Origin: Devosia chinhatensis
GTDB taxonomy: Bacteria; Pseudomonadota; Alphaproteobacteria; Rhizobiales; Devosiaceae
DNA: 64,000 bases
Assembly (NCBI RefSeq): GCF_000969445.1
Contig: NZ_JZEY01000054.1
Span: 806,001-870,000, forward strand
Direction: 5' to 3'
In this document: positions 49,363 to 64,000 of the stretch, one piece after another
Layout: every line of letters starts with the position of its first letter
Position numbering within the stretch: position 1 is the stretch's first letter
Program-made: the position numbers and the translations under genes
The notes under the pieces: model-generated
The model's database searches: none
Told to the model about the DNA's origin: nothing
What the model saw: only the letters and a program-made list of their open reading frames with translations

Positions 49363-49452
49363 GGAGAGGTGGCCGAGTGGTCGAAGGCACACCCCTGCTA
49401 AGGGTGCAGATCGGGAACGGTCTCGAGGGTTCGAATCCCTTCCTCTCCGCCA
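49363..49452 (+). tRNA. tRNA-Ser (anticodon GCU)
   Basis: The 90-base sequence folds as a class II tRNA: acceptor arms GGAGAGG and CCTCTCC, D-loop region GGCCGAGTGGTCGAAGGC, anticodon stem ACCCC/GGGGT-like pairing around CTGCTAA with anticodon GCT, a long variable arm, and the T arm with GGTTCGAATCC. CCA is encoded. The 3' end is the likely insertion site of the accessory element. Confidence 0.95.
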
Positions 49453-49457
49453 ATCAC

Positions 49458-49489
49458 CCCAATAGGCCGTTGTTTTGATTGGGTTTTTT
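49458..49489 (+). terminator. Terminator behind tRNA-Ser
   Basis: CCCAAT and ATTGGG pair across a 14-base loop and are followed by TTTTTT. It lies six bases after the tRNA, at the left edge of the element. Confidence 0.55.
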
Positions 49490-49612
49490 GTTTCTTCCAA
49501 TCCAATGCCCGCCTATAAACCCGCCTAAAAATGGGCATTTGCTTTCAACGCATTGCGACAGATAGAAACAGGTTGAGCTGGCGTCTTAGGTCAAAGATGC
49601 TAGAAACTTGCT

Positions 49613-49900
49613 ATGGACGACGAATCTTCAAAGCCCGCCACAAGTACTGAGAAAGCCGTTGAAATGCGCGAGCGCCGCCGTAAAGCAGGCGTCGTGCAGA
49701 TGAACTTTTTTGTCCGGGAAGAGGACAAACCAGCCATCGTCAAGGCGATGCGTGATTACACCGACCTGGCCTGGCTGGCTCTCTATGATGCCGGTGCCGT
49801 CCTGCATGGTGCAAATGAGGCGCGCGCGGCAGATATTCGCACAAGACTTGGCTTGGCGCCTCCGGCGGCGGTCAGGCCATCAGAGACTACGAAGAAGTAG
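49613..49900 (+). CDS. Small RHH-like protein, function unknown
   Basis: A 95-aa, basic N-terminus protein. RRRKAGVVQMNFFVREEDKP followed by a helix resembles the beta-strand/helix start of ribbon-helix-helix DNA-binding proteins. It is the first gene inside the element, which fits a local regulator or relaxosome accessory. Its 3' end overlaps the convergent 94-aa gene by 14 bases. Confidence 0.5.
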   Translation: MDDESSKPATSTEKAVEMRERRRKAGVVQMNFFVREEDKPAIVKAMRDYTDLAWLALYDAGAVLHGANEARAADIRTRLGLAPPAAVRPSETTKK

Positions 49901-50171
49901 CGCTGCCAGCGCGGTCCCGGTGGATGCCCGTCAGGGCCTGGAAGCGGGAAGCGAACTTACCCCAGGAGATACCAGCAGCGGCGGCGAGCTGTCTGCGCTC
50001 ACCAATCGTGCCGCTGGCCAGAACAGCCTGAAAGACAAATCGTTCATTGCCCTCAGGGCTTGCGCCCCTCAGGATTTGGCGAAGTCGACTTGTCGAGAGC
50101 GCGCCGCTGCTGCGCGCCGCCGCGCGGGATAGAGCCACTTCCGCGAGAGTAAGAACATTGGCGCGGGTCAC
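49887..50171 (-). CDS. Small helical protein of the TraY operon, function unknown
   Basis: A GTG at 50171 overlaps the stop of the 37-aa gene (GTGA) and opens a 94-aa protein, MTRANVLTLAEVALSRAAAR at the start, with a central RFVFQAVLASGTIGERRQLA and a C-terminal GISWGKFASRFQALTGI that looks like a helix-turn-helix. No family recognised. The frame could extend upstream to 50303, but the GTGA coupling makes 50171 the better start. Confidence 0.5.
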   Translation of the reverse strand: MTRANVLTLAEVALSRAAARSSGALSTSRLRQILRGASPEGNERFVFQAVLASGTIGERRQLAAAAGISWGKFASRFQALTGIHRDRAGSATSS

Positions 50172-50281
50172 TGGCCTGCGGCTCCTGAAAAGACGCCCGC
50201 CAGCACGGACAGTCCGAGGCAGAAGGTCACGATTTGCAGCGGGCGAGGCAGATCGAGCCAGCGATGGTACAAAGCTTTCAT
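50168..50281 (-). CDS. 37-aa single-helix membrane peptide
   Basis: A short gene starting at ATG 50281 with AGGA six bases upstream. The peptide has a basic, Trp/Pro-containing start (MKALYHRWLDLPRP) and one hydrophobic helix (LQIVTFCLGLSVLAGVFSG). It lies between the traY-like gene, whose stop is 12 bases upstream, and the 94-aa gene it overlaps by GTGA. The spacing and coupling support a real gene. Confidence 0.5.
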   Translation of the reverse strand: MKALYHRWLDLPRPLQIVTFCLGLSVLAGVFSGAAGQ

Positions 50282-50292
50282 GAGGGGTCCTT

Positions 50293-52278
50293 TCAGGAGT
50301 CATTTGACGAAGAGCCGCCGCCGATCCACTCGGAAACAGCCGCAGGCAGGGATGTGACGAGCGAGAACGAACGCTCGATCACGATCAGAAAAATGGCGAC
50401 GGTCAGAACCGTCATCACCGCAATGGCTGCGAGCCAGAAGACCGGATGGCCGGAAAAGCTCGACAGCAGGTAATAGATACCGGTGCCGATCAGAGTGGAG
50501 ACGGCCCGGAAGACGGCCATGGCGGCGAAAAAGCCGACAATCATCAAGGGCGGCGTTAGGAATAGTCTGAGCAAAAGCCGATAGCCCTGTTGCGCAGCAG
50601 CAGGGGCAATACCTTCACCATCCATTTGCATATGCGCCAACGTCCAGAGTGGGGCCGCAACAATGGCAATGACAACCGTGACGAAGTAGCCAAAGACCGC
50701 CAGAACCCAGAGCACGAAGGGCATTGCTGGAAGGAGGACGGCCATGGCCCCACCGGCCACGGTCATGGTCAGCAGCAATGGTCCCACAACTGCCATGGCC
50801 GCTCCTACGGCCCCGCCGACAACTGGCACTGCTGACGCCAATGCAAGCGCAGCCAGAATGCTGGCAGCGGCACCAACCAGAAGCTGGCCCAGCTCGACTA
50901 GTCCGACCAGCGGGTCGCCCCCGGCAGCGTCTGGCGAGAAATTAAGCGCAATCTGCTGCGTCAGCTTTCGACCGACCTCATCGACCGCAGCGCTGAGAGC
51001 ATCCCAGATCGAGCCGCCTTCGCCTTGGCTCGGCGTTAGGGCGGCAGCCAAGGCCGGATCTGGCAGGCCGAAGCCGAACGATGACAGTGACGCCGCAGCG
51101 CGCGCAAATGCGCCCTCCATGTCGCCGCCTATGCGCAGGATTTCTTCCTCATTTAGGCGAAGGTTTTGGGCGCTGGCGCTACCGAACCAGCCCGGGCGCC
51201 GCCCGCTGGCGGCAGCATCCAGCGTTGAGCCGGTTTGCTCGTAAATATAGCGGGCGGGCGTCAGGACCGACGGCCGAGCCGAAAGAACAGAGGCAGCCTC
51301 CTGATTCAGTCGTGCAAGTACCAGATAGTAGCTGCCTGCGCTGAGCCAGCCCTCTCCCTCCTGATTTTGGAGATAGCTGCGCAGCCGCTCTTGCCCCTCA
51401 CCGCCGCCAGCGCTTCTGACCAGTTCAAACACAGGCGACAATGCCGAGTTGGCGTCAATGACAGCCTGGCGCAGATCGCCGGCTAGATCGACCGCTTGAC
51501 CATCCCGGCCAAAAGATGCGGCGAGGACCTTGGCTGCCAATAGGTCTGTCTTGGCCATCATGGTCGACAGAGCACTTTTGTGAGCCGACAAGAACAGCGC
51601 TGCATCGACTTCGCTCAGATGCATGGGCGCAGATGGGGTGGCAATGGAGCCGCAAATTCCAGCCGTGCTGGTCTCCTGGCCTAAGATGGCAGAGACGAGC
51701 GCAATAGCGCCGCTGCTGTGCTCAGCCTCAACCAGTGAGACATTGGAGTTTGATCCAACAGCCGCAAGCTGGTGATTGGCGAGTGCTGTGCAGGCCGATA
51801 TTTTCCAGATTTCGGCGATAATCGGGGTCGGGAGGCTCGGACTGGTGGCGATAACCTGCACATCACCCGTGACAAGCGCCGGAACGGCACTTGACCACAT
51901 CAATGTTGCCAGGGCGGTGGAGCCGCGCACCACATAGCCAATTCCGGCCTGGATCGTGTTGTATCCGCCAAGATTGGGCACCGGCATCATCAGGCCCACT
52001 GCGACGATCACCCGGATCGGTCCCCAAAGCGAGTTCCAACGCTTTCCTAGGACTTCCCCCTCGTGCGCCGTTTGCAGTAGGGCAGCGGTGACGTTGTAGA
52101 AAAAGAGCAGACCACCAACCACCAGAATGGCTACGTTTAGATAGCCGATAGTGTTGCTCAGCAATGTTGCGCCAGCCCCGAACAACGGTCCGAAAATCTG
52201 GGCGGCCAGCTGCGTCGACCAACTTTCGGCACCGCTGCTCTGCAGTGCGCTCAGCACTGTTGACTGTTGGCTGTCCAC
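50293..52278 (-). CDS. DotA/TraY family type IVB secretion membrane protein
   Basis: The 661-aa protein has about five or six helices, with a large soluble segment at about 150-430. The N-terminal AILVVGGLLFFYNVTAALLQ, then GKRWNSLWGPIRVIVAVG and GYNTIQAGIGYVV match DotA/TraY. The C-terminal helix block (about 470-640) is IVEIVIA-like with MPFVLWVLAVFGYFVTVVIA. In I-type conjugation systems TraY is an inner-membrane component of the transfer apparatus. No other secretion genes are near. Starts at GTG. Confidence 0.78.
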   Translation of the reverse strand: MDSQQSTVLSALQSSGAESWSTQLAAQIFGPLFGAGATLLSNTIGYLNVAILVVGGLLFFYNVTAALLQTAHEGEVLGKRWNSLWGPIRVIVAVGLMMPVPNLGGYNTIQAGIGYVVRGSTALATLMWSSAVPALVTGDVQVIATSPSLPTPIIAEIWKISACTALANHQLAAVGSNSNVSLVEAEHSSGAIALVSAILGQETSTAGICGSIATPSAPMHLSEVDAALFLSAHKSALSTMMAKTDLLAAKVLAASFGRDGQAVDLAGDLRQAVIDANSALSPVFELVRSAGGGEGQERLRSYLQNQEGEGWLSAGSYYLVLARLNQEAASVLSARPSVLTPARYIYEQTGSTLDAAASGRRPGWFGSASAQNLRLNEEEILRIGGDMEGAFARAAASLSSFGFGLPDPALAAALTPSQGEGGSIWDALSAAVDEVGRKLTQQIALNFSPDAAGGDPLVGLVELGQLLVGAAASILAALALASAVPVVGGAVGAAMAVVGPLLLTMTVAGGAMAVLLPAMPFVLWVLAVFGYFVTVVIAIVAAPLWTLAHMQMDGEGIAPAAAQQGYRLLLRLFLTPPLMIVGFFAAMAVFRAVSTLIGTGIYYLLSSFSGHPVFWLAAIAVMTVLTVAIFLIVIERSFSLVTSLPAAVSEWIGGGSSSNDS

Positions 52279-52285
52279 CGCTCAC

Positions 52286-52624
52286 CTATTCAATGAACAG
52301 GCAGGGCCGGGGCAAAATGGATCCGACTGAGGCGTACAGCGCCTTGGCAGCGCGGCCATTGCCAAAAAATCCAACCAGCCCCTCAGCGGTGTCCGAGACC
52401 GAGGCCGCTGACCTCACGGTATTCCGCATTCCAGCGAACTCTTCACGAACGACGATTTCTGCGATCCAGTTATCCGCTTCCGTTCGGAACAGGCGGACCA
52501 TGGTTGACCGCGTAACGCCGCCGGCCTGATGGTCGTGCGCAAACCCGCAACCAACCACCTCGCCGGTAAATTGCAGGTCTGGTTCCCCGTCGCGTTCAAT
52601 CAGAAAGGCGGTCAGCTTGGTCAT
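52286..52624 (-). CDS. 112-aa protein, first gene of the traY-like operon, unknown
   Basis: ATG 52624 follows AGGAG by seven bases. The soluble protein has no signal or membrane helix; features include FTGEVVGCGFAHDHQAGG and EADNWIAEIVVREEF. It reads as mixed alpha/beta, and I recognise no family. It ends eight bases before the traY-like start, so they are co-transcribed. The longer frame reaching 52945 overlaps mobC and is rejected. Confidence 0.6.
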   Translation of the reverse strand: MTKLTAFLIERDGEPDLQFTGEVVGCGFAHDHQAGGVTRSTMVRLFRTEADNWIAEIVVREEFAGMRNTVRSAASVSDTAEGLVGFFGNGRAAKALYASVGSILPRPCLFIE

Positions 52625-52829
52625 TATTGCTCCTAAGAGGCGGTCGATTCGTGGCAAATGGAGTAAGTCACTTGCGTCTTGCAATTCAGACGTTAGTTCT
52701 TTAAATCGGGATAAGCAAGCAGTGTTTTCTCCGGGTCCCTGCCGGGGCCGTTGAAAACGTCGCCTCCGGCTCCAGCTTGCCGGGGCAGGCCCGGGCCCGG
52801 CGCAGAGCCGGACGAAGAAAGGAACAGTA
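52625..52829. other. Candidate oriT region between divergent mobilization operons
   Basis: The 205-base gap is packed with repeats: TCCGGCTC (52765) and GAGCCGGA (52805) form an inverted pair, TGCCGGGGC occurs twice (52740 and 52778), GTTTTC (52724) and GAAAAC (52753) are inverted, and CCGGGCCCGG (52791) is palindromic. It sits next to mobC and the relaxase, the usual place for oriT, and must also hold both operon promoters. No known nic sequence is recognised. Confidence 0.45.
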
Positions 52830-53186
52830 ATGGCCAACCGAACGCACCGCTTTGAACTGATGCTGTCCGATGCTGAGCGCGAAATTGTCGCCGCCAGCGC
52901 GGCGGCGACTGGCTTGACCATGGCCGCATTTGCGCGACAGGCCATGATGATTGATCAGCCTGTAAGCGCCCGGGCCAAGGCCCACGTAGTGGACCGGGCT
53001 GCGATAGCGGCACTCAATGCGATTGGGTCAAATCTCAACCAGATCGCCAAAATCGGGAACAGTTCCAAGACGCTGAACCAGCAGCATCTGCAGGCCCTTA
53101 CGGTCATGTTCCGCCGACTGTCTGCGATTGTGAAAAGGATCGAGAACCCGGAAGTTCTGGTTGGCGCCGGACGGGCCGACCAATGA
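52830..53186 (+). CDS. mobC: MobC-type mobilization accessory protein
   Basis: This 118-aa protein has an RHH-like start (RTHRFELMLSDAEREIVAAS) and the MobC signature ALNAIGSNLNQIAKIGNSS (about 61-79). MobC binds oriT and helps the relaxase melt the nic region. AAGGA lies before its ATG. Its stop overlaps the relaxase start by four bases. Confidence 0.85.
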   Translation: MANRTHRFELMLSDAEREIVAASAAATGLTMAAFARQAMMIDQPVSARAKAHVVDRAAIAALNAIGSNLNQIAKIGNSSKTLNQQHLQALTVMFRRLSAIVKRIENPEVLVGAGRADQ

Positions 53187-54142
53187 TCGGCAAGATCAAA
53201 AACCTGCCGACAGGTGCCGACCTGAGGCGGCTGGACGCCTATCTGCGCGGTCCCGCTTCCGAGCGCGTCGCTGGCTCATTCTCGCTGAACCTGGCTTCGG
53301 ATGACGCAGCGGACATCCTCGACTTGATGGACGCGCAGGCTGGTTTGAGTCGACGTGCAAAGAAACCGATCTTGCACATCTCTGTCAGCTATGCGCCGAC
53401 CGATGAGGTGACGCCGGCGGAGATGCAGGTGGATGCCCAAGGCATTCTTGACGTGCTCGGTATGCGCGGCCATCAGGCGTTTGCAGTCATTCACGACGAC
53501 AAGAGCTATCAGCATTTCCATCTGGTCATAAATCGCGTCGATCCAGACGGCCGTTGCGTTGGCGACAGCAACTCCAAGCGAAAGATCGAGAAGGTGCTGC
53601 GCGCCATCGAGGCCGAGCGCGAGCTTCAGCCTGTTCCCGGGCGGTTGGCCGAAACACCTGGGCAAAAGCGCTTTGCAGGGCCGCGGGCGGCGCGGCGCGG
53701 TTATGTGCAACCTCCTCTGGCGGTGATCGAAGCAATGCAAACGGCACGTTCCAGGGCCGAGCTGGACGCGCGCCTGGCATCGGCGGGCTGGAAACTTGAA
53801 TCGGCTTCACCCCGACGCGGCCAAAAGGCTGGTGGATTGATCCTCTACGGCCCCGAAGGCGCCCGCGCCAACGCGAGTGCATGCGGTCGCGATTGTTCCG
53901 GCCCAGCCCTCGCGCGGCGATTTTCGGCCTCGGCGCCGCCGCGCACAGCGGCACAGCGCGCTAAAATTGGCGCAAACGCGTCACCAACGCCCACCCCGCA
54001 GCCCACCGGCGCAGACAAGCTGGCAATGGCCATCCGCAATGCACGGATCAGAAGTCCACGCCTGTCTGGCGTCCGGCCGCCGAGCACTTCCAGCATCATT
54101 ACCCGCGCCATTGGCGCAGTCATCCCCCTCCCGAAATTGTAG
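53183..54142 (+). CDS. Relaxase/mobilization nuclease (VirD2-like)
   Basis: This 319-aa protein nicks oriT and leads the transferred strand. The relaxase domain (about 1-150) has a candidate tyrosine in LDAYLRG and the metal-binding triad region SYQHFHLVINRVDPDG (about 110-125, H-x-H). A basic Pro/Arg/Ala-rich tail makes up the rest. Short for a relaxase, it has no helicase or primase domain, in keeping with MOBP/MOBQ proteins. Coupled to mobC by ATGA. Confidence 0.85.
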   Translation: MIGKIKNLPTGADLRRLDAYLRGPASERVAGSFSLNLASDDAADILDLMDAQAGLSRRAKKPILHISVSYAPTDEVTPAEMQVDAQGILDVLGMRGHQAFAVIHDDKSYQHFHLVINRVDPDGRCVGDSNSKRKIEKVLRAIEAERELQPVPGRLAETPGQKRFAGPRAARRGYVQPPLAVIEAMQTARSRAELDARLASAGWKLESASPRRGQKAGGLILYGPEGARANASACGRDCSGPALARRFSASAPPRTAAQRAKIGANASPTPTPQPTGADKLAMAIRNARIRSPRLSGVRPPSTSSIITRAIGAVIPLPKL

Positions 54143-54149
54143 GTGAAGC

Positions 54150-54551
54150 GTGAGCGACGATATTGAAAACACCATCAATAATTTCCTGATTGAGGCTGCG
54201 GCCATGCGCGCTGCTCTTGAGCGGCAGGCAGAACAAGTTGTGCAGGTTACTGGCGCTCTGCAGCAGGCTACGACAGAGAACCTGCGAGCGCGCAAGCAAC
54301 TGGCCCATATGGTGTCAGCTGGCGTCTATACCGAAGCGGCATCGCGGATCGCACAGTCCTGCGCCCCACTGGTCAAATCCATTTCACAGGCAGCCAATCA
54401 GGCCGAGCACGCCTTGGGCGTAAAGCTGGAAGAAGTCGAACGCGCCCAGGTGGCCGGATGGCTGATCCAAATGGTCATCGCACTTGGTAGCGGATTCATC
54501 GCGTCCATGTTGACCGCTTTCGCAATCTTTGCATGGAGGCTCTGGCAATGA
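54150..54551 (+). CDS. Coiled-coil membrane protein of the mobilization operon
   Basis: A 133-aa protein from GTG 54150 (AGGTGAAGC upstream). It has a long Gln/Ala/Glu-rich helix (about 10-100, AALERQAEQVVQVTGALQQA), then one C-terminal membrane helix IQMVIALGSGFIASMLTAFA. This resembles small membrane-anchored relaxosome factors such as MbeD/MobD-type proteins in layout only. Overlaps the next gene by ATGA. Confidence 0.6.
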   Translation: MSDDIENTINNFLIEAAAMRAALERQAEQVVQVTGALQQATTENLRARKQLAHMVSAGVYTEAASRIAQSCAPLVKSISQAANQAEHALGVKLEEVERAQVAGWLIQMVIALGSGFIASMLTAFAIFAWRLWQ

Positions 54552-54865
54552 TTGAAAACAGTTGGACCCATCAGCTGCGCCAGCATCACGCTGGGGCCGC
54601 AAACGAGTTGGATCAACGTGCCATAGCGCTCTGCGATGCGTGGATAACATGGGCCGATGGGTTCGGAATTGCGCCACCCGCTGAGTTGGCGGCACAACTG
54701 AAGAGTGCAAAGACCGAAAGTGCATGTGTCATTGTTAGGCAGATCACCCGCAAGCTGGCGAAGGAATGCCCAGTCACCATGCCAATGCAAAGCCCGACGA
54801 GCGATTTGTTTGACGCCTCGGCGGGCCCCTCAATGTTTGATCTTGGCAAAGGGCCATCCCCTTGA
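54548..54865 (+). CDS. 105-aa protein at the end of the mobilization operon, unknown
   Basis: Starts at ATG 54548, overlapping the upstream stop (ATGA). It is soluble and helical, with two tryptophans in CDAWITWADGFGI and SPTSDLFDASAG near the C-terminus. No family recognised. Its coupling with the mob operon suggests a transfer role. Confidence 0.5.
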   Translation: MIENSWTHQLRQHHAGAANELDQRAIALCDAWITWADGFGIAPPAELAAQLKSAKTESACVIVRQITRKLAKECPVTMPMQSPTSDLFDASAGPSMFDLGKGPSP

Positions 54866-55136
54866 ACATCAAGATGGGCAGCTCGCACCGCTAACGAAGA
54901 TATCGAAGCCCTGGTAACACCGAGCGAGGCGCGGCGACCCGCTACCATTTGCGCGCCGACAAGGATCGACCTATACGCGCTTATTAACTCAAGCCTTGGT
55001 GTCCGTCGAAAGGGCCGGAATCGTCCGATTGACCCGGTCGGGAAAATTGCCCATTCCATAGGAAATGCCCAACCGCGATATCGTCGAATTCTTTGCCACC
55101 GCGGGCAGGGCATGACTGACCGAGGTGCCTGAACGT

Positions 55137-57935
55137 ATGAACGCCGTTGAGATCGAAGAGGCCATTTCCGCACTGGCTGAGCAGCCGTTCGATGCGTCCG
55201 AGTTTCCGTTCGCGTTCCTGACAGCATTCGGCAACAAAGAGACCACCATCAAGCGCTTGCGCAAAGGCGAGTCGAACAAATCCGACTTGGGCGGCGTCCT
55301 CCAGACCAGCAACATACACATCGCAGTCAGCGCGCCCGGCGAAGTCGGCAATACCCTGGCGGCCCTTCGTGCCAGCCCTGCGACCGCGCGCGCAAAAGCG
55401 CGGTTCATCCTGGCGACGGATGGGGATACCCTGGAGGCAGAAGACCTGACCACCGACGACCCGCCAGTTGCCTGCCGATATGCCGAGTTCCCGGATCATT
55501 TCGGCTTTTTTCTCCCACTTGCCGGCATCACCACTGTCAAGCAAATCCGGGAAAGCTCTTTCGATATCCGCGCCACTGGGCGGTTGAATCGACTGTACGT
55601 GGAATTGCTGAAGGACAACCCAGAATGGGGAACCAGCGAGCGTCGCGCGGACATGAACCACTTCATGGCGCGATTGATTTTCTGCTTCTTCGCCGAGGAT
55701 ACGGACATCTTTGGCGGCAATCGGCGCTTTACCACCACCATTGAGCAGATGAGCTCTCGGGATTCTGCCAATACCCATGAGGTCATTGAGACGCTTTTTG
55801 GTACCATGAGCATGACCAATGCCCAACGCGAGTTGGCCAAGGTTCCTCGCTGGGCAGACATGTTTCCTTATGTGAACGGCGGGCTCTTCTCGGGTAGTAC
55901 GGAGGTGCCGAGGTTCAGCCGAATTGCCCGGTCATATCTTTTAAATATCGGCGCTCTGGATTGGACTCAGATCAACCCGGACATTTTCGGTTCTATGATT
56001 CAGGCCGTCGCTGATGAAGATGAGCGTGGCGCGCTCGGAATGCACTACACGTCCGTGCCGAACATCCTGAAAGTGCTCAACCCACTCTTCCTCGATGACC
56101 TTCGAGAACAGCTTCAGGAAGCCGGAGATAATTCCCGGAAGTTGCTGAACCTACGCAACCGCATGGCCAAAATCAGGGTATTCGATCCGGCCTGCGGTTC
56201 GGGAAATTTCCTTGTCATCGCTTACAAGGAAATGCGCGCTATCGAAGCAAAGCTAAATGAGCGTCGCGGCGAACCTGACCGGCGCAGCGAAATCCCACTG
56301 ACCAATTTCCGAGGCATCGAACTGAGAAGTTTCCCAGCCGAGATTGCTCGGCTGGCGCTCATCATTGCCGAGTTTCAGTGTGACGTGCTCTATCGTGGGC
56401 AGAAGGAAGCCCTTGCGGAGTTCCTGCCGCTCGACGCTCAGAACTGGATCACCTGTGGCAATGCTCTAAGGCTCGATTGGCTGAGCATCTGCCCACCGAC
56501 CGGCACCGGTGTAAAGTTCCAGGCAGATGATCTTTTTCACACTCCTATCAACCAGGCACAGATCGACTTCGACAACGAAGGTGGCGAAACGTATATTTGT
56601 GGAAACCCCCCATATCTCGGAAACAAGCTTCAGTCTGATGAGCAAAAGTCTGATCTGGGCAATGTCTTTGAAGGCCGGATAGAAGGGTGGAAGTCCCTCG
56701 ACTACGTAGCTGCATGGTTTATGAGGGCGGCAGATTACGGCACGAAGACCAGCGCCGCATCCGCTTTTGTTACTACCAACTCTCTGTGCCAAGGACAGCA
56801 AGTTCCGCTCCTGTGGCCTGCAATATTTGCAAAACATCACGAGATCATATTTGCTCACACGTCTTTCAAATGGGCAAATCTCGCAAGTTATAATGCCGGT
56901 GTAACGGTAATTATAGTGGGAATTTCGAATTCTGACAGAAAAAGGCGGAAGCTTTATTCAATCGATCAGGATGGATTAACCCAAGAGAAAATTTGTAACA
57001 ACATTAATCCTTATCTCGTAGATGGGCCGAACCTCGTTATTGAGAGCAAGCGCGACGCAGGACGAGGCCGTGCGCCAATGCTGTTCGGAAATATGCCGCG
57101 TGACGGTGGTAATTTAATTGTGACACAGGAGGAATTTGCTGCAACAAAAACCCAGCGCGATGATGTATTTGCAAAGTACCTAAGGCGCTTTGTAGGTTCG
57201 GAGGACTTCATCCAGGGAAAATCACGATATTGTCTTTGGATCGAGAAATCCCAGCACCAAGACGCTTTGCGATCTGCGCAAATTGCAAAAAGGTTGGATG
57301 CGGTAAAGGAGGTGCGTCTTGCGAGCAAAGCCGGATCAACCCGTGACTATGCAAGGGCTCCTTACCGATTCGTGCAAATACAAGGCACAGCCAAAGTCAG
57401 CACAATTATAGTGCCTCGCCACAGTTCGGAGCGCCGATCATATCTTCCAGTTGGCTTGCTGGACGCATCCGCGATCATCGCGGACAGCGCATTCGCAATT
57501 TACGACGCGCCATTGTGGACGCTCTCGCTAATCGCCTCTCGCCTCCACCTTGTCTGGATCGCAGCAGTCTGCGGAAAGCTCAAGACCGACTATCGTTACT
57601 CGAACACTTTGGGTTGGAACACATTCCCCCTGCCTCGCCTTACCGCGAAGAATGAGGCGGATTTGAACGAGTCCGCTACCAGCATCCTGTTGGCGCGAGA
57701 AAGCTACTATCCGGCGTCAATCAGCGAAATGTACGATCCTGACGAAATGTCTCGAGCTTTCCCGTCTTTGCAGCAAGCGCATGACCGCAACGATGAGATT
57801 ATTGAGCGCATCTACATTGGGCGAAAATTTAAGAACGACACTGAGCGACTTGAGAAGCTCTTCGCAATGTACGCGGACGATCAGAAAGGCGGTCAACGCA
57901 GAGAGGCAATGGTAACTGAAGGAGGCCGCATATGA
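55137..57935 (+). CDS. MmeI-like class I SAM-dependent DNA adenine methyltransferase
   Basis: The 932-aa protein has an N-terminal region (1-200) with FPDHFGFFLPLAGI and FCFFAEDTDIF, a helical spacer, then an adenine-methyltransferase core with motif I DPACGSGNF (about 350) and motif IV NPPY (490-493), an AT-rich target-recognition region (about 490-765), and a helical C-terminus. The layout is that of MmeI/type IIG enzymes, but no clear D-(E/Q)-x-K nuclease motif is seen in the N-terminus. Start ATG 55137 agrees with the family. Its stop overlaps the PLD gene by ATGA. Confidence 0.88.
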   Translation: MNAVEIEEAISALAEQPFDASEFPFAFLTAFGNKETTIKRLRKGESNKSDLGGVLQTSNIHIAVSAPGEVGNTLAALRASPATARAKARFILATDGDTLEAEDLTTDDPPVACRYAEFPDHFGFFLPLAGITTVKQIRESSFDIRATGRLNRLYVELLKDNPEWGTSERRADMNHFMARLIFCFFAEDTDIFGGNRRFTTTIEQMSSRDSANTHEVIETLFGTMSMTNAQRELAKVPRWADMFPYVNGGLFSGSTEVPRFSRIARSYLLNIGALDWTQINPDIFGSMIQAVADEDERGALGMHYTSVPNILKVLNPLFLDDLREQLQEAGDNSRKLLNLRNRMAKIRVFDPACGSGNFLVIAYKEMRAIEAKLNERRGEPDRRSEIPLTNFRGIELRSFPAEIARLALIIAEFQCDVLYRGQKEALAEFLPLDAQNWITCGNALRLDWLSICPPTGTGVKFQADDLFHTPINQAQIDFDNEGGETYICGNPPYLGNKLQSDEQKSDLGNVFEGRIEGWKSLDYVAAWFMRAADYGTKTSAASAFVTTNSLCQGQQVPLLWPAIFAKHHEIIFAHTSFKWANLASYNAGVTVIIVGISNSDRKRRKLYSIDQDGLTQEKICNNINPYLVDGPNLVIESKRDAGRGRAPMLFGNMPRDGGNLIVTQEEFAATKTQRDDVFAKYLRRFVGSEDFIQGKSRYCLWIEKSQHQDALRSAQIAKRLDAVKEVRLASKAGSTRDYARAPYRFVQIQGTAKVSTIIVPRHSSERRSYLPVGLLDASAIIADSAFAIYDAPLWTLSLIASRLHLVWIAAVCGKLKTDYRYSNTLGWNTFPLPRLTAKNEADLNESATSILLARESYYPASISEMYDPDEMSRAFPSLQQAHDRNDEIIERIYIGRKFKNDTERLEKLFAMYADDQKGGQRREAMVTEGGRI

Positions 57936-59026
57936 CTCAAGTTGACTACATCGCGCAGCCAGCCTTTCGATCAACGCTCGAAACAATTGACGGCATCCTG
58001 TCGCAGGCTGGGATCGCGAACCTGGATGTAGCCGCAGCGTACGTCACGTCAGGAGGACTAAACGACTTGGTCGTTCGCAGCGCCGCGACATTGGGGGCTC
58101 GGTGGGCTGGCCTGGACAAAAGATGGCTTACCTCATTTGACTATTGCCGAACAGAGCCTGTCGCGCTCGATGCCATGCTTGCAATGCCGGGTTCATCTGT
58201 CCGCGTATACGACGCCCAATTCTGCTTGGCTCATGGGGGCATGCCCAGGGTGCCATTTCACCCGAAAGCCTATTTGATGCGCAGTAATCAACGAGATTAT
58301 GCCCTTGCGGGGTCCGGCAATCTCTCACGGTCTGGATTGTCGAGGGGTGTTGAGGCCGGGCTTGCAATCAGTGTGGATCGATTGGTCGCGGATGAACCAA
58401 CTTCGGTCGCCGCCGTGCAGGCGCTGCGCGATTGGTACGCAGCGACGTGGGCTGCCGCAACACCTCTGAACGCAGCATTGTTGGCAGACTACACAAGAGT
58501 TTTCGAAAGCGCGGAAAATCTCAAAAAGCCCACTCCCACGGAAGATGATGTTGCGACCAGCGACACCAGCGCGGGTGCAATCTCCAGCGCAAACTTGCAG
58601 AAACTTAGAGTTTGCCGAAATTTTTGGATCGAAGCAGGCAACATAACAAAAAATAGAGGTCCGCATTTACCTGGAAGTCAGCTTATGATGAAGCGACTTT
58701 CACGAGTATTTTTTGGCTTTCCACCAACAGACATTCCAAAAAATACTCATATTGGAAACGTGCTAATTAGCTACCAGGGAGGCAATCTGGAACAATACTC
58801 GCTAACCTACAGCGACAACAAGATGGACAAGCTGAATCTCCCCATTCCAGGCGCAGGAGGACCAGTCGCCTACGATGGCAGGCTCATTATTTTCAGACAG
58901 GTGGGTCCAAGAGCATTTGACTTATCGCTGGGGACACGGGCGGACAAAACCAATTGGTTGAAAAGAAGCCGCGCGATTGATGGCATCTTCAAGATGACAA
59001 GCGGCCGTGAATGGGGCGTATTTTGA
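57932..59026 (+). CDS. PLD-family nuclease with probable B3-like DNA-binding domain
   Basis: This 364-aa protein has one HKD-like motif: HPKAYL (about 110-115) followed by GSGNLSRSGL (about 128-137). A single copy means the active site would need a dimer, as in BfiI. The C-terminal part (about 215-364) has WIEAGNITKNRG, NKMDKLNLPIPG and SGREWGVF. This reminds me of the B3-like recognition domain of BfiI/NgoFVII restriction enzymes, from memory. The gene is translationally coupled to both neighbours, and its 3' third is AT-rich. Confidence 0.78.
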   Translation: MTQVDYIAQPAFRSTLETIDGILSQAGIANLDVAAAYVTSGGLNDLVVRSAATLGARWAGLDKRWLTSFDYCRTEPVALDAMLAMPGSSVRVYDAQFCLAHGGMPRVPFHPKAYLMRSNQRDYALAGSGNLSRSGLSRGVEAGLAISVDRLVADEPTSVAAVQALRDWYAATWAAATPLNAALLADYTRVFESAENLKKPTPTEDDVATSDTSAGAISSANLQKLRVCRNFWIEAGNITKNRGPHLPGSQLMMKRLSRVFFGFPPTDIPKNTHIGNVLISYQGGNLEQYSLTYSDNKMDKLNLPIPGAGGPVAYDGRLIIFRQVGPRAFDLSLGTRADKTNWLKRSRAIDGIFKMTSGREWGVF

Positions 59027-61110
59027 TGACAGGCAATAGGAGCGACAATGCGGGATTCCTTACGGTTCCAACCATTTCGGTTCCCTATGCCCGCAACGGC
59101 AACTCGACCAAGGCCAACGCGCTGGGCATGCGCACGATGCAGGAGCGCGCATACGAAAGGCGGGGCGAGCAATATCTGCTAATCAAGTCCCCGCCCGCGT
59201 CCGGCAAAAGCCGCGCGCTCATGTTCATCGCGCTGGACAAGCTCAACAACCAGGGCCTGAAGCAGGCCATCATCGTCGTGCCGGAAAAGTCCATCGGTGC
59301 GAGTTTCGCGGACGAACCGCTGACCAAATACGGGTTCTGGGCCGATTGGACGGTGGAACCGAAATGGAACCTTTGCAACGCGCCCGGCGAGGACGGCGGC
59401 AAGGTCAAGTCGGTCGGTGCGTTTCTCGAAAGCACGGACAAGGTACTGGTCTGCACCCACGCGACGTTCCGCTTTGCTCTGGATAGGTTCGGAGCAGCAG
59501 CCTTCGACAATCGCTTGATCGCAGTGGATGAGTTCCACCATGTTTCCGCCGACACCGACAGCAAGCTGGGCCAGCATTTGGGCCAGCTCATCGCGCGCGG
59601 CAGCGCTCACATCGTCGCCATGACCGGCTCCTATTTCCGGGGCGACGCAGTGCCGGTGCTCATGCCGGATGACGAGGCAAAATTTCGCGACGGGACTGTC
59701 ACCTATACCTACTACGAGCAGCTCAACGGCTATGAGTATCTTAAGCAGCTCGATATTGGTTACTTCTTCTACTCGGGCTCCTACGCAGACGACATTCTCA
59801 ATGTCCTCAACCCTGGGGAAAAGACCATCATCCACATCCCTTCCGTCAATTCGCGCGAGAGCACGAAAGATAAAATCCGGGAAGTGGAACACATCATCGA
59901 AGCGCTGGGCGACTGGCAGGGAACCGATCCTGCGACCGGCTTCCAACTGGTCAAGCGACCCGACGGCAGAGTGTTGCGCATTGCCGACCTTGTCGATGAC
60001 GACCCCAGTAAGCGCGACCGCGTTTCTGCTGCGCTGAAAGACCCCAGCCAGAAGAATAACCGCGACCATGTCGATATCATCATTGCACTCGGTATGGCCA
60101 AGGAAGGCTTCGACTGGATTTGGTGCGAACACGCCCTGACAGTGGGCTACCGCTCTAGCCTCACGGAAATCGTGCAAATCATCGGGCGCGCGACCCGCGA
60201 CGCGCCAGGCAAGACCCGCGCCCGCTTCTCCAATCTCATCGCCGAGCCTGACGCATCCGACGAGGCGGTAACCGAGGCCATCAACGACACGCTGAAAGCC
60301 ATCGCCGCCAGCCTGCTGATGGAACAGGTGCTCGCGCCGCGTTTCAACTTCACCCCGAAGAACCCCCAGAGCGGCCCTATTGAAGGGTTCGATTATGGCG
60401 ACGGCGGTTATGCGTCGGACAAGACAAATGTTGGCTTCAATGAGGAAACTGGTCAGTTCCATATCGAGATTAAGGGGTTGGCCGAGCCCACCAGCAAGGA
60501 GGCTGGGCGTATCGTCCGCGAAGACCTCAATGAAGTGATTGCGGCGTTTGTGCAGGACAAGACCGCCATCGAGCGCGGTCTGTTTGACGAGGAGCTTGTC
60601 CCTGAGGAGCTGACCGTTGCCCGCATGGGAAAGATTATCAAGGACAAGTATCCCGACCTGACTGACGAAGACCAAGAAGCGGTGCGCCAGCACGCTGTCG
60701 CTGCGCTCAACCTTACCCAAAAGGCAAAACAAATTGCTTTGGGCGATGATGGTGATGAACCAAGTCGGAACACTGCGCTGATCGACGGAGTGCGTAAGCT
60801 CAATATGGATGTGCGCGAGTTGGACATCGACCTGATCGACCGGATCAACCCGTTCGGGGAAGCATACGCCATTCTGGCTAAGACCATGAGCGAGGAGAGC
60901 TTGAAACAGGTCGCGGCAGCAATCTCTGCCAAGCGGTTCACTTTGAGTGTGGATGAGGCCAAGGACCTGGCAGTGCGCGCGGTACGCTTCAAAAAGGAGC
61001 GGGGCCGGCTTCCATCAATTAGTTCGTCAGACCCTTGGGAAAAGCACCTTGCCGAGGGCGCGGCCGCTTTCGTGCGATACAAGGACGAGGGACGATATGA
61101 GCGACCTTGA
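59026..61110 (+). CDS. SF2 DEAD/DEAH-box helicase of the restriction-like operon
   Basis: This 694-aa protein has Walker A PPASGKS (56-62), motif II DEFHH (168-172), and the motif VI QIIGRATRD (about 385-393). The C-terminal half (about 440-694) is unassigned and helical. ATG 59026 shares one base with the upstream PLD stop (TGATG), which favours this start over the earlier one at 59011. Likely translocates or remodels DNA for the nucleases. Composition is high GC, unlike the PLD 3' end. Confidence 0.87.
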   Translation: MTGNRSDNAGFLTVPTISVPYARNGNSTKANALGMRTMQERAYERRGEQYLLIKSPPASGKSRALMFIALDKLNNQGLKQAIIVVPEKSIGASFADEPLTKYGFWADWTVEPKWNLCNAPGEDGGKVKSVGAFLESTDKVLVCTHATFRFALDRFGAAAFDNRLIAVDEFHHVSADTDSKLGQHLGQLIARGSAHIVAMTGSYFRGDAVPVLMPDDEAKFRDGTVTYTYYEQLNGYEYLKQLDIGYFFYSGSYADDILNVLNPGEKTIIHIPSVNSRESTKDKIREVEHIIEALGDWQGTDPATGFQLVKRPDGRVLRIADLVDDDPSKRDRVSAALKDPSQKNNRDHVDIIIALGMAKEGFDWIWCEHALTVGYRSSLTEIVQIIGRATRDAPGKTRARFSNLIAEPDASDEAVTEAINDTLKAIAASLLMEQVLAPRFNFTPKNPQSGPIEGFDYGDGGYASDKTNVGFNEETGQFHIEIKGLAEPTSKEAGRIVREDLNEVIAAFVQDKTAIERGLFDEELVPEELTVARMGKIIKDKYPDLTDEDQEAVRQHAVAALNLTQKAKQIALGDDGDEPSRNTALIDGVRKLNMDVRELDIDLIDRINPFGEAYAILAKTMSEESLKQVAAAISAKRFTLSVDEAKDLAVRAVRFKKERGRLPSISSSDPWEKHLAEGAAAFVRYKDEGRYERP

Positions 61111-62293
61111 CCTTGACGAACTGCGCAGCGAGCTTTCCGACTTCGCCGTTTCTGAGAAAAAGGGCGGACTGTCGCCGCGCGACGAACGGATCATTACCGG
61201 CTTCGAAGAAATCCAACGATTCACTGACCAGCATGGTCATGCCCCTCGGCATAGCGAGGCAAATGACATATTTGAGCGCCTATATGCGGTTAGACTTGAT
61301 CGGCTGCGCGCTCTTGACGAATGTCGCACCCTTCTTGCTCCCCTTGATCGCCAAGGATTGCTCAGTGGTCCCAGTTTTGACCCCGTCGCACCTGTTGAAT
61401 CCATGGATGATGACGAATTGCTGGCCGAACTTGCCGGCGCGGCAGGTTCTTCAGACATTACCGAGTTGCGCCATGTGAGGACTGCGGCCGACAAGCGCGC
61501 CGCAGAGGAAATCGCCAACCGCGCACCCGCCGAAGATTTCGACCAGTTCAAGCCAATGTTTGACCAGTTGGCCAGGGACGTTAAGATTGGCACCAGGATC
61601 ACCCAGCCGATCCGCAAAGACGCCGGTTTTCTCAAGGCCAACATCAAAGTCGGTGACTTCTTTATTGTCGATGGGCAAACTACCTATGTCGCCGAGGTCG
61701 GGGAACCCATTCGCGCACCCAACGGCGAATCCGATGCGCGGTTGCGTGTGATCTATTCGAACGGCACCGAGAGCAACTTGCTCCTGCGTTCACTTCAGCG
61801 CGCACTCTACAAAGACGAAACCAGCCGCCGTATATCGGAGCCCAACGCCGGGCCATTGTTTTCCGGAGACAGCGAAGACGGCGACCTCGCCAGCGGTACA
61901 ATCTATGTATTGCGGAGCAAGTCGGACCACCCCTTGGTCGCTGCCAACCGCGATGTGCTGCACAAGATTGGCGTCACCGGCGGCGACGTTGTTCGGCGCA
62001 TCGCCAATGCCAAATTGGATGCCACATTCCTGTTGGCCGAGGTGGAGCTGGTCGCTACCTACAAGCTTGCCAACGTCAACCGCACCAGGCTGGAAAACCT
62101 GATCCACCGCATCTTCGATGTTTCCCGCCTCGACATCGAGATAATGGATCGCTTCGGCAACCCTGTTATCCCGCGCGAGTGGTTCCTGGTGCCGCTGTTC
62201 GTGGTCGATGAGGCCGTCGAGCGCATCAAGGACGGGACCATCACCCAATATCGTTATGATCCAGAAACGGCTTCGCTTCGGCCGGTGAGTTAG
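61097..62293 (+). CDS. GIY-YIG nuclease family protein (T5orf172-like)
   Basis: ATG 61097 lies within the helicase 3' end (14-base overlap) and gives a 398-aa protein. An N-terminal helical part (1-190) is unassigned. A middle strand-rich region (about 170-235) follows, with FLKANIKVGDFFIVDG. The GIY-YIG domain (about 266-345) has GTIYVLRSKS, HKIGVTGGDVVRRIANA and a downstream Glu in RLENLIHRIF. This is the T5orf172/MUG113 pattern. Last gene before the terminator at 62344. Confidence 0.83.
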   Translation: MSDLDLDELRSELSDFAVSEKKGGLSPRDERIITGFEEIQRFTDQHGHAPRHSEANDIFERLYAVRLDRLRALDECRTLLAPLDRQGLLSGPSFDPVAPVESMDDDELLAELAGAAGSSDITELRHVRTAADKRAAEEIANRAPAEDFDQFKPMFDQLARDVKIGTRITQPIRKDAGFLKANIKVGDFFIVDGQTTYVAEVGEPIRAPNGESDARLRVIYSNGTESNLLLRSLQRALYKDETSRRISEPNAGPLFSGDSEDGDLASGTIYVLRSKSDHPLVAANRDVLHKIGVTGGDVVRRIANAKLDATFLLAEVELVATYKLANVNRTRLENLIHRIFDVSRLDIEIMDRFGNPVIPREWFLVPLFVVDEAVERIKDGTITQYRYDPETASLRPVS

Positions 62294-62343
62294 GCGAGGC
62301 GTTGCTTCCTTCGCTCAGCCCCGGCGCGCTGCGCCGAGAAGGA

Positions 62344-62370
62344 GGCCTGGCTCCGCCTGGCCAATTTTTT
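62344..62370 (+). terminator. Terminator of the four-gene operon
   Basis: GGCC arms enclose an inner GGC/GCC stem with a T-T mismatch (62344-62362), followed two bases later by TTTTTT. It lies 51 bases after the GIY-YIG stop. Confidence 0.75.
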
Positions 62371-62860
62371 GCCGAAAACACTTAGAATGCCATGCGCCGC
62401 GGCTATGACGTCAACAGGCCGCTGCGCTGGGCCTGTGTGACGCCGCCGCGCTCGCATGGCGATTCTGATGGTATCGGGCGGGGAACATCGTTTTCCGCGC
62501 TCCGCGCGGGTTTTCAGGCCGCTCGGGCGCGGGCCTTCAAACAGGGAACAGGGCTACAAGAGAAGACCCGCGGCAGCTTCTTTCCCAAGCCCTTTGTTCG
62601 ACGCGCCGCAGGCACGTCGAATCTTTTTGGGGGGACGCCCTTCGTCCCGACACCTCCAGAAGGCCACAGCGCACAGCGCAGAGTCACCCGTAGGGCCGCA
62701 GCGGAGCGGAGGACTGCCTTGGCAGTTGACCTGCGCGAGCACTGTGGCACCGCTTTCTTGCTTCTTTTTTGTTCCTTGTTCCCAGTTTCAGACCTCTATC
62801 CAGAAAAGTTTAGGACGCTGTGAGGTTGACGAGAAGTGCCGAGACCGGTTGTTTTGGTGG
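62371..62860. other. Gene-free, GC-rich spacer with no supported gene
   Basis: About 490 bases with only weak overlapping frames on both strands (best 143 codons). Their translations are Arg/Pro/Gly-rich without domain features or clear ribosome-binding sites. Short repeats such as CGCTCCGCGCGG and GCAGCGGAGCGG occur. I see no gene, tRNA or CRISPR here. Confidence 0.4.
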
Positions 62861-62889
62861 GAACACCGGGAACATTCGTCCCGGTGTTC
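62861..62889 (-). terminator. Hairpin at the 3' end of the VapE gene
   Basis: Perfect 11-base arms GAACACCGGGA and TCCCGGTGTTC with a 7-base loop, ten bases after the vapE stop on the minus strand. There is no long T-run, so termination is only likely. Confidence 0.5.
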
Positions 62890-62898
62890 GTTCCTGGT

Positions 62899-64000
62899 CT
62901 AGTTACTATCGATGCCTTGCGGGGGGTGATACTGCCACTGAAATGCCTGCCCTACCCGCACTTTCACCCTCCTCCAGCCGCTGGCTCGGAGCACGCGTGA
63001 AACTCGGTTCTTGTCGGATTGTTTCCAAAGAGCTGTGCTCATATCTAGGCAGTCGCCGAGAATTTGAGGAATGGTCACGAAAGCACGATCCGAAATGAAC
63101 TCGAAGATCGGCTCGTCCCACGGATCTCCCTCATAACGGGCGGATTGTTCGATCACAGCCTGTTTCAGCACTTCCCCTTCCTCCAACCACCACTTGTAGT
63201 TGCTGCGGTAAAGGTGCACGGCCTCTGCCCAGATCTGATTCCGGTCAGCAGTCAAACGTTCGACATCCGATTTTGTCACCGCAACAGGCCAAATCCTACG
63301 AGCACCCGTAGGATCGCGGAGGTAGTCCTCGCTATTGGTGGTGCCAGAGAAGACGCATTGCCGGGGCACATTGACCGCGCAAGTGGCATATGGCGGGCGA
63401 AAGCGGTCGACGCGGCAGGTTAGGAAGCCGTTCATGGTTTCGACTGTCGTCGTCTTCAGAGACTCGAGCTCGCCAAGTTCAATAATCCACATCCCATGAG
63501 TTTGCAGCGCTGCATCCTTTGTGCCGAGTGGTGGCATGCGGTCCGTAAACCACTCTCCGGCCAGAACCCTGAGAGCAGAAGATTTTCGAAGCCCCTGGTT
63601 CCCTTCGAGGACGAGAGTGACGTCGGCTTGGCATCCGGGCTGGAATATGCGCGCAACCGCCGAAACCAAATAACGCGAGCCTATTTCCTCGGTATAGCTT
63701 GTTTTTTCGGCCCCCATATATTCTGTGAGCCAGCTATCAAGACGAGCGGTCCCATCCCACTTCAGTGATTCAAGGTATTGTCGCACCGGGTGGAAAGGAT
63801 GCCGGAAAGCAACCATTGTCGCCGCATGCTTTACATCACGCACATTGACGTTGATCTCGCGCTCTTGCAGCCAGCTTGCGGCCTGTAGTTCATCGAATTC
63901 CTGCCATTCCCGAGGCCTAAACTCCTCTTTGTTGTCCCAGGGGAGCGGCGACAGTACTGTTGGCTTGCTTGCAAACACATCAAAGCCAAGGCACCCGAAG
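62899..64000 (-). CDS. Virulence-associated E (VapE) family protein, 5' end outside window
   Basis: The frame is open to the right edge; the GTG at 63978 is preceded by in-frame coding-like residues (FGCLGFD), so the start lies beyond 64,000. About 367 residues are visible. They include VRQYLESLKWDGTARLDSWL, an ATPase-like LEGNQGLRKSSALRVLAG, then SGTTNSEDYLRDPTGARRIW, the VapE pattern. VapE proteins occur in satellite phages and integrated elements, and they resemble SF3-type replication ATPases. It probably belongs to the element's replication module. Confidence 0.8.
   Translation of the reverse strand, partial: FGCLGFDVFASKPTVLSPLPWDNKEEFRPREWQEFDELQAASWLQEREINVNVRDVKHAATMVAFRHPFHPVRQYLESLKWDGTARLDSWLTEYMGAEKTSYTEEIGSRYLVSAVARIFQPGCQADVTLVLEGNQGLRKSSALRVLAGEWFTDRMPPLGTKDAALQTHGMWIIELGELESLKTTTVETMNGFLTCRVDRFRPPYATCAVNVPRQCVFSGTTNSEDYLRDPTGARRIWPVAVTKSDVERLTADRNQIWAEAVHLYRSNYKWWLEEGEVLKQAVIEQSARYEGDPWDEPIFEFISDRAFVTIPQILGDCLDMSTALWKQSDKNRVSRVLRASGWRRVKVRVGQAFQWQYHPPQGIDSN

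Follow-up and report, generated by a model that had tools for sequence, protein, structure and literature searches.

The closest described relatives of the operon analysed here are the dnmA-yeeB-yeeC clusters. DnmA of Bacillus subtilis is an MmeI-like methyltransferase (MTase) that lacks the nuclease motif and methylates GACGAG; conservation of the cluster and a higher content of defence families around it than around random genes are also described (PMC7261158, PMC9973331). We analysed a stretch of 64,000 nucleotides from Devosia chinhatensis (contig NZ_JZEY01000054.1, positions 806,001 to 870,000; hereafter the window), in which an operon of this type contains one more gene, located between those for the MTase and the helicase and predicted to encode an endonuclease with a PLD nuclease domain and a B3-like DNA-recognition domain (PLD-B3). 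Comparison of related loci reveals that this nuclease follows the target-recognition half of the MTase, not the rest of the operon.

The operon and its PLD-B3 gene

Gene content, folds, active sites, the linkage to the target-recognition domain and the fixed contact residues are results of computation. The four genes lie where an earlier note on this DNA had placed them (Table 1), and all couplings described in it were confirmed: the MTase and PLD genes overlap by ATGA (57932-57935), the PLD and helicase genes meet in TGATG (59024-59028) and the helicase and GIY-YIG genes overlap by 14 bases (61097-61110). The terminator claimed behind them found no support: one weak terminator-like site is present there (62348-62363), but the whole stretch contains 6 such sites versus 9.3 expected by shuffling.

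The MTase contains all five MmeI domains in Pfam (MmeI_N, hel, Mtase, TRD, C), it matches MmeI itself in PDB (5hr4, E 6e-131), and motifs DPACGSGNF and NPPY are present; an ExK nuclease motif is absent from the aligned position. The helicase matches DEAD and ResIII in Pfam, and its motifs ASGKS, DEFH and QIIGRATR are conserved in the 15 rows displayed. In the GIY-YIG protein (Pfam T5orf172 and MUG113), residues Y270, K290-I291-G292, R301, E333 and H337 are invariant in 24 rows; its predicted structure (pLDDT 75, pTM 0.38) had no match at E <0.001 and the model was not used. An MmeI-like MTase without ExK motif, followed by an SF2 helicase and a T5orf172/GIY-YIG gene, identifies the operon as a member of the DnmA-YeeB-YeeC type. 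Since these genes are the described trio, three of the four genes are not new. All four together, like a PLD-B3 gene in such an operon, were not found described in the open-access PMC literature.

Across the collections searched, the helicase is far commoner than the PLD relative. It matched 264 plasmid records (149 of them over at least 80% of the helicase), occurs, with the window's own genome counted, in 17 of the 385 class genomes, and is encoded, wholly or in part, at 37 viral-contig loci. When 76 helicase loci were set side by side, the GIY-YIG gene was present in 73 and the MTase in 67; where an MTase match is lacking (nine loci), the locus begins less than 970 bases from the helicase. 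Loci L017-L021 and L096-L106, all on plasmids, were hand-picked from match lists. In one of them (L018:3343-6953) the MTase match is split in two around an IS5 transposase gene, and the helicase and GIY-YIG genes are still there.

In Pfam the PLD protein matches only PLDc_2, below cut-off, and a sequence search against PDB gave nothing useful; a fold search with its predicted model (pLDDT 86) succeeded instead, with matches to BfiI and R.NgoAVII (3zi5, 6c5d, 3hqf). The model consists of a BfiI-type PLD nuclease domain, with a single HxK motif and intact catalytic residues, and a C-terminal B3-like DNA-recognition domain. Among 84,980 species genomes, relatives were detected at 13 loci, 9 of them full length. 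All nine have the MTase gene before the PLD gene and the helicase gene after it; the GIY-YIG gene comes next in eight, and the ninth contig ends there, so the gene order is not random. Partner genes were not seen at the four partial matches (L010-L013). The co-occurrence that the earlier note had asked for is borne out for the close full-length PLD relatives at these nine loci, whereas the trio itself usually occurs without a PLD gene. In a wider search of 398 genomes of the phylum and 385 of the class, weak partial matches only were found apart from the window, and none in phage records and viral contigs. Related proteins of the PLD-B3 kind numbered 410 at E 0.001 among 7999 scored.

Three plasmids of the Methylobacterium group (L105:4095-7960, L144:3179-7044 and L145:3179-7044) combine a PLD-B3 gene with one for an MmeI-like enzyme that keeps D-ExK; here too, two nucleases share a methylase. 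Their PLD-B3 proteins are 78-91% alike. Because their TRDs (target-recognition domains) are 100% identical, they provide no independent replicate of the linkage described below. At L106:5632-11277, two genes accompany a PLD-B3 relative: one for an N-6 DNA methylase, encoded on the other strand, and a second PLD gene close by.

Genes for an MTase, a PLD-B3 protein and an SF2 helicase are also combined in CglI and NgoAVII, where ATP and both proteins are needed (PMC4267653, PMC5737866). It is conceivable, though in our view rather unlikely, that the Devosia operon likewise encodes one ATP-dependent machine, in which PLD-B3 would find the site and cut only with YeeB acting as the N/H protein, and the GIY-YIG protein would be an auxiliary nuclease of the complex. 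Tight gene coupling agrees with this: a 4-base overlap joins the MTase and PLD genes in 7 of 9 loci, and TAATG/TGATG junctions connect the PLD gene to the helicase gene in 7 of 9. R.CglI and R.NgoAVII, like BfiI, also share with the Devosia operon the PLD nuclease with a B3-like recognition domain and a separate MTase gene. By contrast, CglI and NgoAVII have a 5-methylcytosine MTase, whereas MmeI-type adenine MTase domains are found here. Besides DEAD and ResIII, Pfam gives PMBR at no better than E 0.01.

Linkage of the nuclease to target recognition

TRD comparisons were based on 57 of the 67 MTase-bearing helicase loci (extracted MTase piece >800 residues) and on L105, which is without helicase. 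Omission of L055 and L059, whose TRDs are copies of those in L067 and L058, and of L105 left 56 rows including the window; ten far helicases were further omitted from the 46-locus trees.

Identity to the window was calculated for 9 PLD loci and for 38 loci with helicase identity >60%. The two groups separate only in MTase residues 495-836, with 70 versus 52% identity in residues 495-620 and 68 versus 43% in the TRD. Remaining parts of the MTase (74 versus 73, 82 versus 81 and 65 versus 62%), the helicase (77 versus 77%) and the GIY-YIG protein (64 versus 62%) do not distinguish them. Phylogenetic trees display the same pattern. With the TRD half (56 loci, support 99), 1 change of the PLD label suffices; the helicase tree of 56 loci requires 9, where shuffled labels need 9.4, and that of the MTase N-terminal half (46 loci) requires 10; grouping PLD loci together was rejected for the N-terminal half and the helicase (46 loci). 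Among PLD loci, distances between PLD domains correlate with those between TRDs (r 0.73, p 0.0016) but not with those between helicases (r -0.08).

The MmeI co-crystal study names base-contact residues (PMC4833311), which map to window residues 650, 653, 732, 746, 747, 761, 783, 784, 816, 818 and 820. Ten nuclease-bearing loci were compared with 46 others, 56 rows with the window. All ten have the contact set FMAVQRDSKDR and none of the 46 does, the nearest differing at 3 positions. Across the ten loci, 11 of 11 contact columns are invariant, versus 74 of all 212 in the TRD (p 6e-6), and at 45-55% TRD identity PLD pairs (n=17) differ at 0 of 11 contacts, other pairs (n=175) at 7.2-7.4 on average. 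Under the rules given in PMC4833311, the window set would specify A (Ala723, Gln738), A (Met645), G (Arg751, Asp773), R (Arg810 with small 774), A and G (Lys806, Asp808), that is, a predicted AAGRAG-like target of the MTase. PLD-B3 and MTase appear to read one target. AAGRAG occurs 11 times in the operon and 56 times in the window, from which no inference was drawn.

The slot between methyltransferase and helicase

The gap between MTase and helicase in DnmA-YeeB-YeeC operons is a cargo slot. Setting aside the loci retrieved with the PLD query leaves 58 of 67; in 32 of these the gap measures less than 300 bases and in 26 it is larger. Its contents include RhuM in L057 (by Pfam), with a protein 55% identical to it in L086; YhcG/DUF1016 in L058 and L088 (L059 is a copy); a PD-(D/E)XK protein (PDDEXK_4) in L070 (by Pfam), with a 45% identical one in L087; and a CoiA-like protein in L048. 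A two-gene insert, shared by L098:3314-5813 and L099:3313-5812, codes for a protein of 294 amino acids (88% identical) and a Schlafen AlbA_2 protein (96% identical); the helicases of these operons are near-identical and their TRDs just 60% alike. FRG-domain and DUF3800 proteins fill the slot of a viral-contig locus (L071:5704-7476), genes annotated as toxin-antitoxin that of a Synechococcus plasmid (L102:2812-3750), and uncharacterized proteins occur as well. A PLD gene was found in 1 of the 58, L019, a locus picked partly for its PLD match; its PLD-B3 protein is diverged (31% identical), and 3 contact positions of its MTase differ, all serving bases 4 and 6. The slot is a place to look for further effectors.

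The explanation we favour, with moderate confidence, is a BfiI-like endonuclease nested in a restriction system of the DnmA-YeeB-YeeC type; the endonuclease would act on the same predicted AAGRAG-like site and be held off by shared methylation. The MTase would mark the fifth base, an adenine, of an asymmetric site of six bases, predicted as 5'-AAGRAG-3'. The core restriction arm would consist of YeeB, an SF2 motor driven by ATP, and YeeC, a nuclease of the GIY-YIG kind; with a target supplied by the MTase, they could work with many different TRDs. PLD-B3 would provide a second arm, its B3 domain binding the same site when unmethylated and its PLD domain, presumably active as a dimer through the single HxK motif, cutting nearby. 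One MTase would protect the host from both arms, whose presumed role is phage defence. Because the nuclease would read DNA itself, it would survive only beside a TRD protecting its site; being so confined, it would move with that TRD between core operons as one specificity cassette.

Several points weigh against this explanation. The contact map was made by hand via a single alignment to MmeI, and fixed contacts are not peculiar to PLD loci: one non-PLD pair at 45-50% TRD identity differs at 1 contact only, and pairs L086-L052 and L097-L101 (60-70% identity bin), also without PLD, keep 11 of 11. The B3 domain, expected to match the TRD best, correlates with it more weakly (r 0.54, p 0.028) than does the PLD domain, and the MTase C-terminal part lying between TRD and PLD correlates too (r 0.45-0.47); physical linkage therefore plays a part. 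As the TRD and the PLD gene are neighbours, some of the linkage is accounted for by their being transferred together in a single recombination tract. Moreover, PLD loci form one TRD clade, statistically a single origin of the pairing, since kept. The nearest other TRDs are not much more distant, at 53% (L019, with diverged PLD) and 50% identity (L047 and L092, both without PLD). A reverse search with the TRD half at E 1e-40 detected no close TRD that could show whether this one also occurs without PLD, the best non-self match over residues 485-836 being 54% in 398 genomes and 56% among the plasmid matches listed. Finally, far PLD relatives are under-sampled, because the 9 loci come from one PLD query needing exact peptides.

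In a rival reading, the PLD protein would be a generic accessory effector of the slot, tied to the TRD by a shared recombination tract only. The many unrelated genes found in the slot and its position next to the TRD speak for such hitch-hiking, as does the correlation of the intervening MTase stretch. We nevertheless regard it as improbable, since other slot genes of similar or greater conservation are not bound to a TRD. Slot proteins of 137 amino acids in L100 and L101 are 79% identical beside TRDs of 36% identity, the RhuM proteins of L057 and L086 accompany TRDs of 41%, and with the Schlafen proteins of L098 and L099 6 of 11 contacts are different. For the 34 non-PLD pairs whose TRDs are at least 55% identical, slot contents (labelled by hand, with L019 counted as non-PLD) differ in 22 and agree in 12, of which 11 are both empty; at the same threshold there are 29 PLD-PLD pairs and zero PLD/non-PLD pairs. 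Hitch-hiking also leaves unexplained the 11 of 11 fixed contacts in TRDs about 50% alike and the B3 domain itself.

A further point against restriction is that DnmA-YeeB-YeeC of B. subtilis restricted neither plasmid uptake nor three phages tried (PMC7261158, PMC9973331). In PMC9973331 this cluster is concluded to be a relic, in which the MTase alone works and the rest is inert. For the Devosia operon we hold this to be very improbable: active-site residues of PLD, helicase and GIY-YIG proteins are conserved in the compared rows, and deletion of the dnmA and yeeB homologues of Vibrio crassostreae raises sensitivity to some phages, as cited in the same paper.

Nested restriction with a BfiI-like enzyme may have a more general form, to which we give an even chance: one MTase with two independent arms, a TRD-tolerant motor core and a self-reading BfiI-like nuclease, the latter exchanged together with the TRD as a single cassette. 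If so, a core operon could acquire a new target and a new nuclease at once, and its host would survive the change. When restriction enzyme and methylase are separate proteins, their target has to change jointly, which is hard; MmeI-type enzymes avoid the difficulty through a shared TRD (PMC4833311). Here an independent nuclease has apparently been added to a system with a shared TRD and become bound to one particular TRD. This offers a natural experiment on how two proteins that read the same site independently stay in step, and draws attention to a BfiI-like enzyme family.

Mobile-element setting and known systems

As the earlier note had suggested, the operon is located in a mobile element, probably an integrative mobilizable element of 17.2 kb at tRNA-Ser(GCT), spanning 49363-64000 plus L139:1-3611 (Table 1). 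GC content is 0.52-0.61 in the window's part of the element (from 50 kb on) versus 0.61-0.67 upstream. The element also encodes a NikA/MobC protein and a VapE-like protein. A protein of 661 amino acids (50293-52278, minus strand) has no Pfam match; its hydrophobic make-up is reminiscent of DotA/TraY conjugation proteins. Such a protein would be odd for this element, in which no further transfer gene of that kind was noticed.

Table 1. Features of the operon and of the surrounding element (window coordinates unless a locus is given)
Feature	Position	Strand	Basis or remarks
MmeI-like m6A methyltransferase (DnmA/YeeA type), without D-ExK nuclease motif	55137..57935	+	Pfam, PDB match, motifs
MTase target-recognition domain (TRD), about residues 625-836	57009..57644	+	contact positions FMAVQRDSKDR (11) between residues 650 and 820
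Predicted PLD-B3 endonuclease (BfiI/R.NgoAVII architecture), in variable slot	57932..59026	+	predicted fold, catalytic residues
PLD nuclease domain, residues 1-190	57932..58501	+	H110 K112 S128 N130 E141
B3-like DNA-recognition domain, residues 226-364	58607..59023	+	
SF2 helicase, YeeB type	59026..61110 (alternative start 59011)	+	Pfam, motifs
T5orf172/GIY-YIG nuclease, YeeC type	61097..62293	+	Pfam, invariant residues
tRNA-Ser(GCT)	49363-49452		
Left att-like repeat CTTCCTCTCCGCCA, 14 bases	49438..49451	+	at tRNA-Ser(GCT) 3' end
MobA/VirD2 relaxase	53183-54142		
Right copy of 14-base repeat	66598 in window numbering		beyond the window
Tyrosine integrase	L139:2176-3441	-	beside right repeat

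A check of the defence catalogue PADLOC 2.0.0, limited to its protein models, gave no full-length match for the helicase, GIY-YIG and PLD proteins, while the MTase is filed there as Type IIG. DISARM resembles the operon in uniting MTase (a partial DrmMI match, E 1e-24), PLD nuclease and helicase; it differs in DrmA and DrmB (DUF1998), which none of the four proteins match in Pfam and PADLOC models. The PLD protein was rejected as DrmC, as its PADLOC match is weak (E 5e-4). On a Methylocystis plasmid (L021:1-15107), a PLD-B3 relative (34%) directly follows a methylase in a DISARM operon and is possibly an unrecognised site-specific nuclease of that system. Other PLD/HKD nucleases with helicases, in different gene sets, have been described (PMC12839542, PMC12458937, PMC10853773, PMC9142583).

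The operon and Type ISP enzymes have in common that motor, methylation and cutting belong to one system. In Type ISP enzymes such as LlaGI all functions reside in a single polypeptide, whereas here they are distributed over four genes. The earlier view of a restriction-like operon, coupled and with two different nucleases, is retained; its reading as a split LlaGI-like system was rejected, the MTase being MmeI-like. The PLD gene has the appearance of an independent, site-specific BfiI-type endonuclease rather than of a detached piece of the core. With MmeI and Type IIL enzymes the MTase shares MTase, spacer, TRD and C-terminal domains and the contact-residue positions; it differs in loss of the N-terminal D...ExK nuclease motif, which L105 has, and in restriction by separate proteins. 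The likeness to DnmA-YeeB-YeeC of B. subtilis and to its V. crassostreae homologues extends to the MTase, helicase and T5orf172 genes, their order and the loss of the ExK motif. A PLD-B3 gene between MTase and helicase is not reported there, and the main text of PMC9973331 mentions neither phospholipase nor PLD. As judged from sequence and predicted structure, the trio is already known and the added PLD-B3 nuclease between MTase and helicase appears to be what is new.

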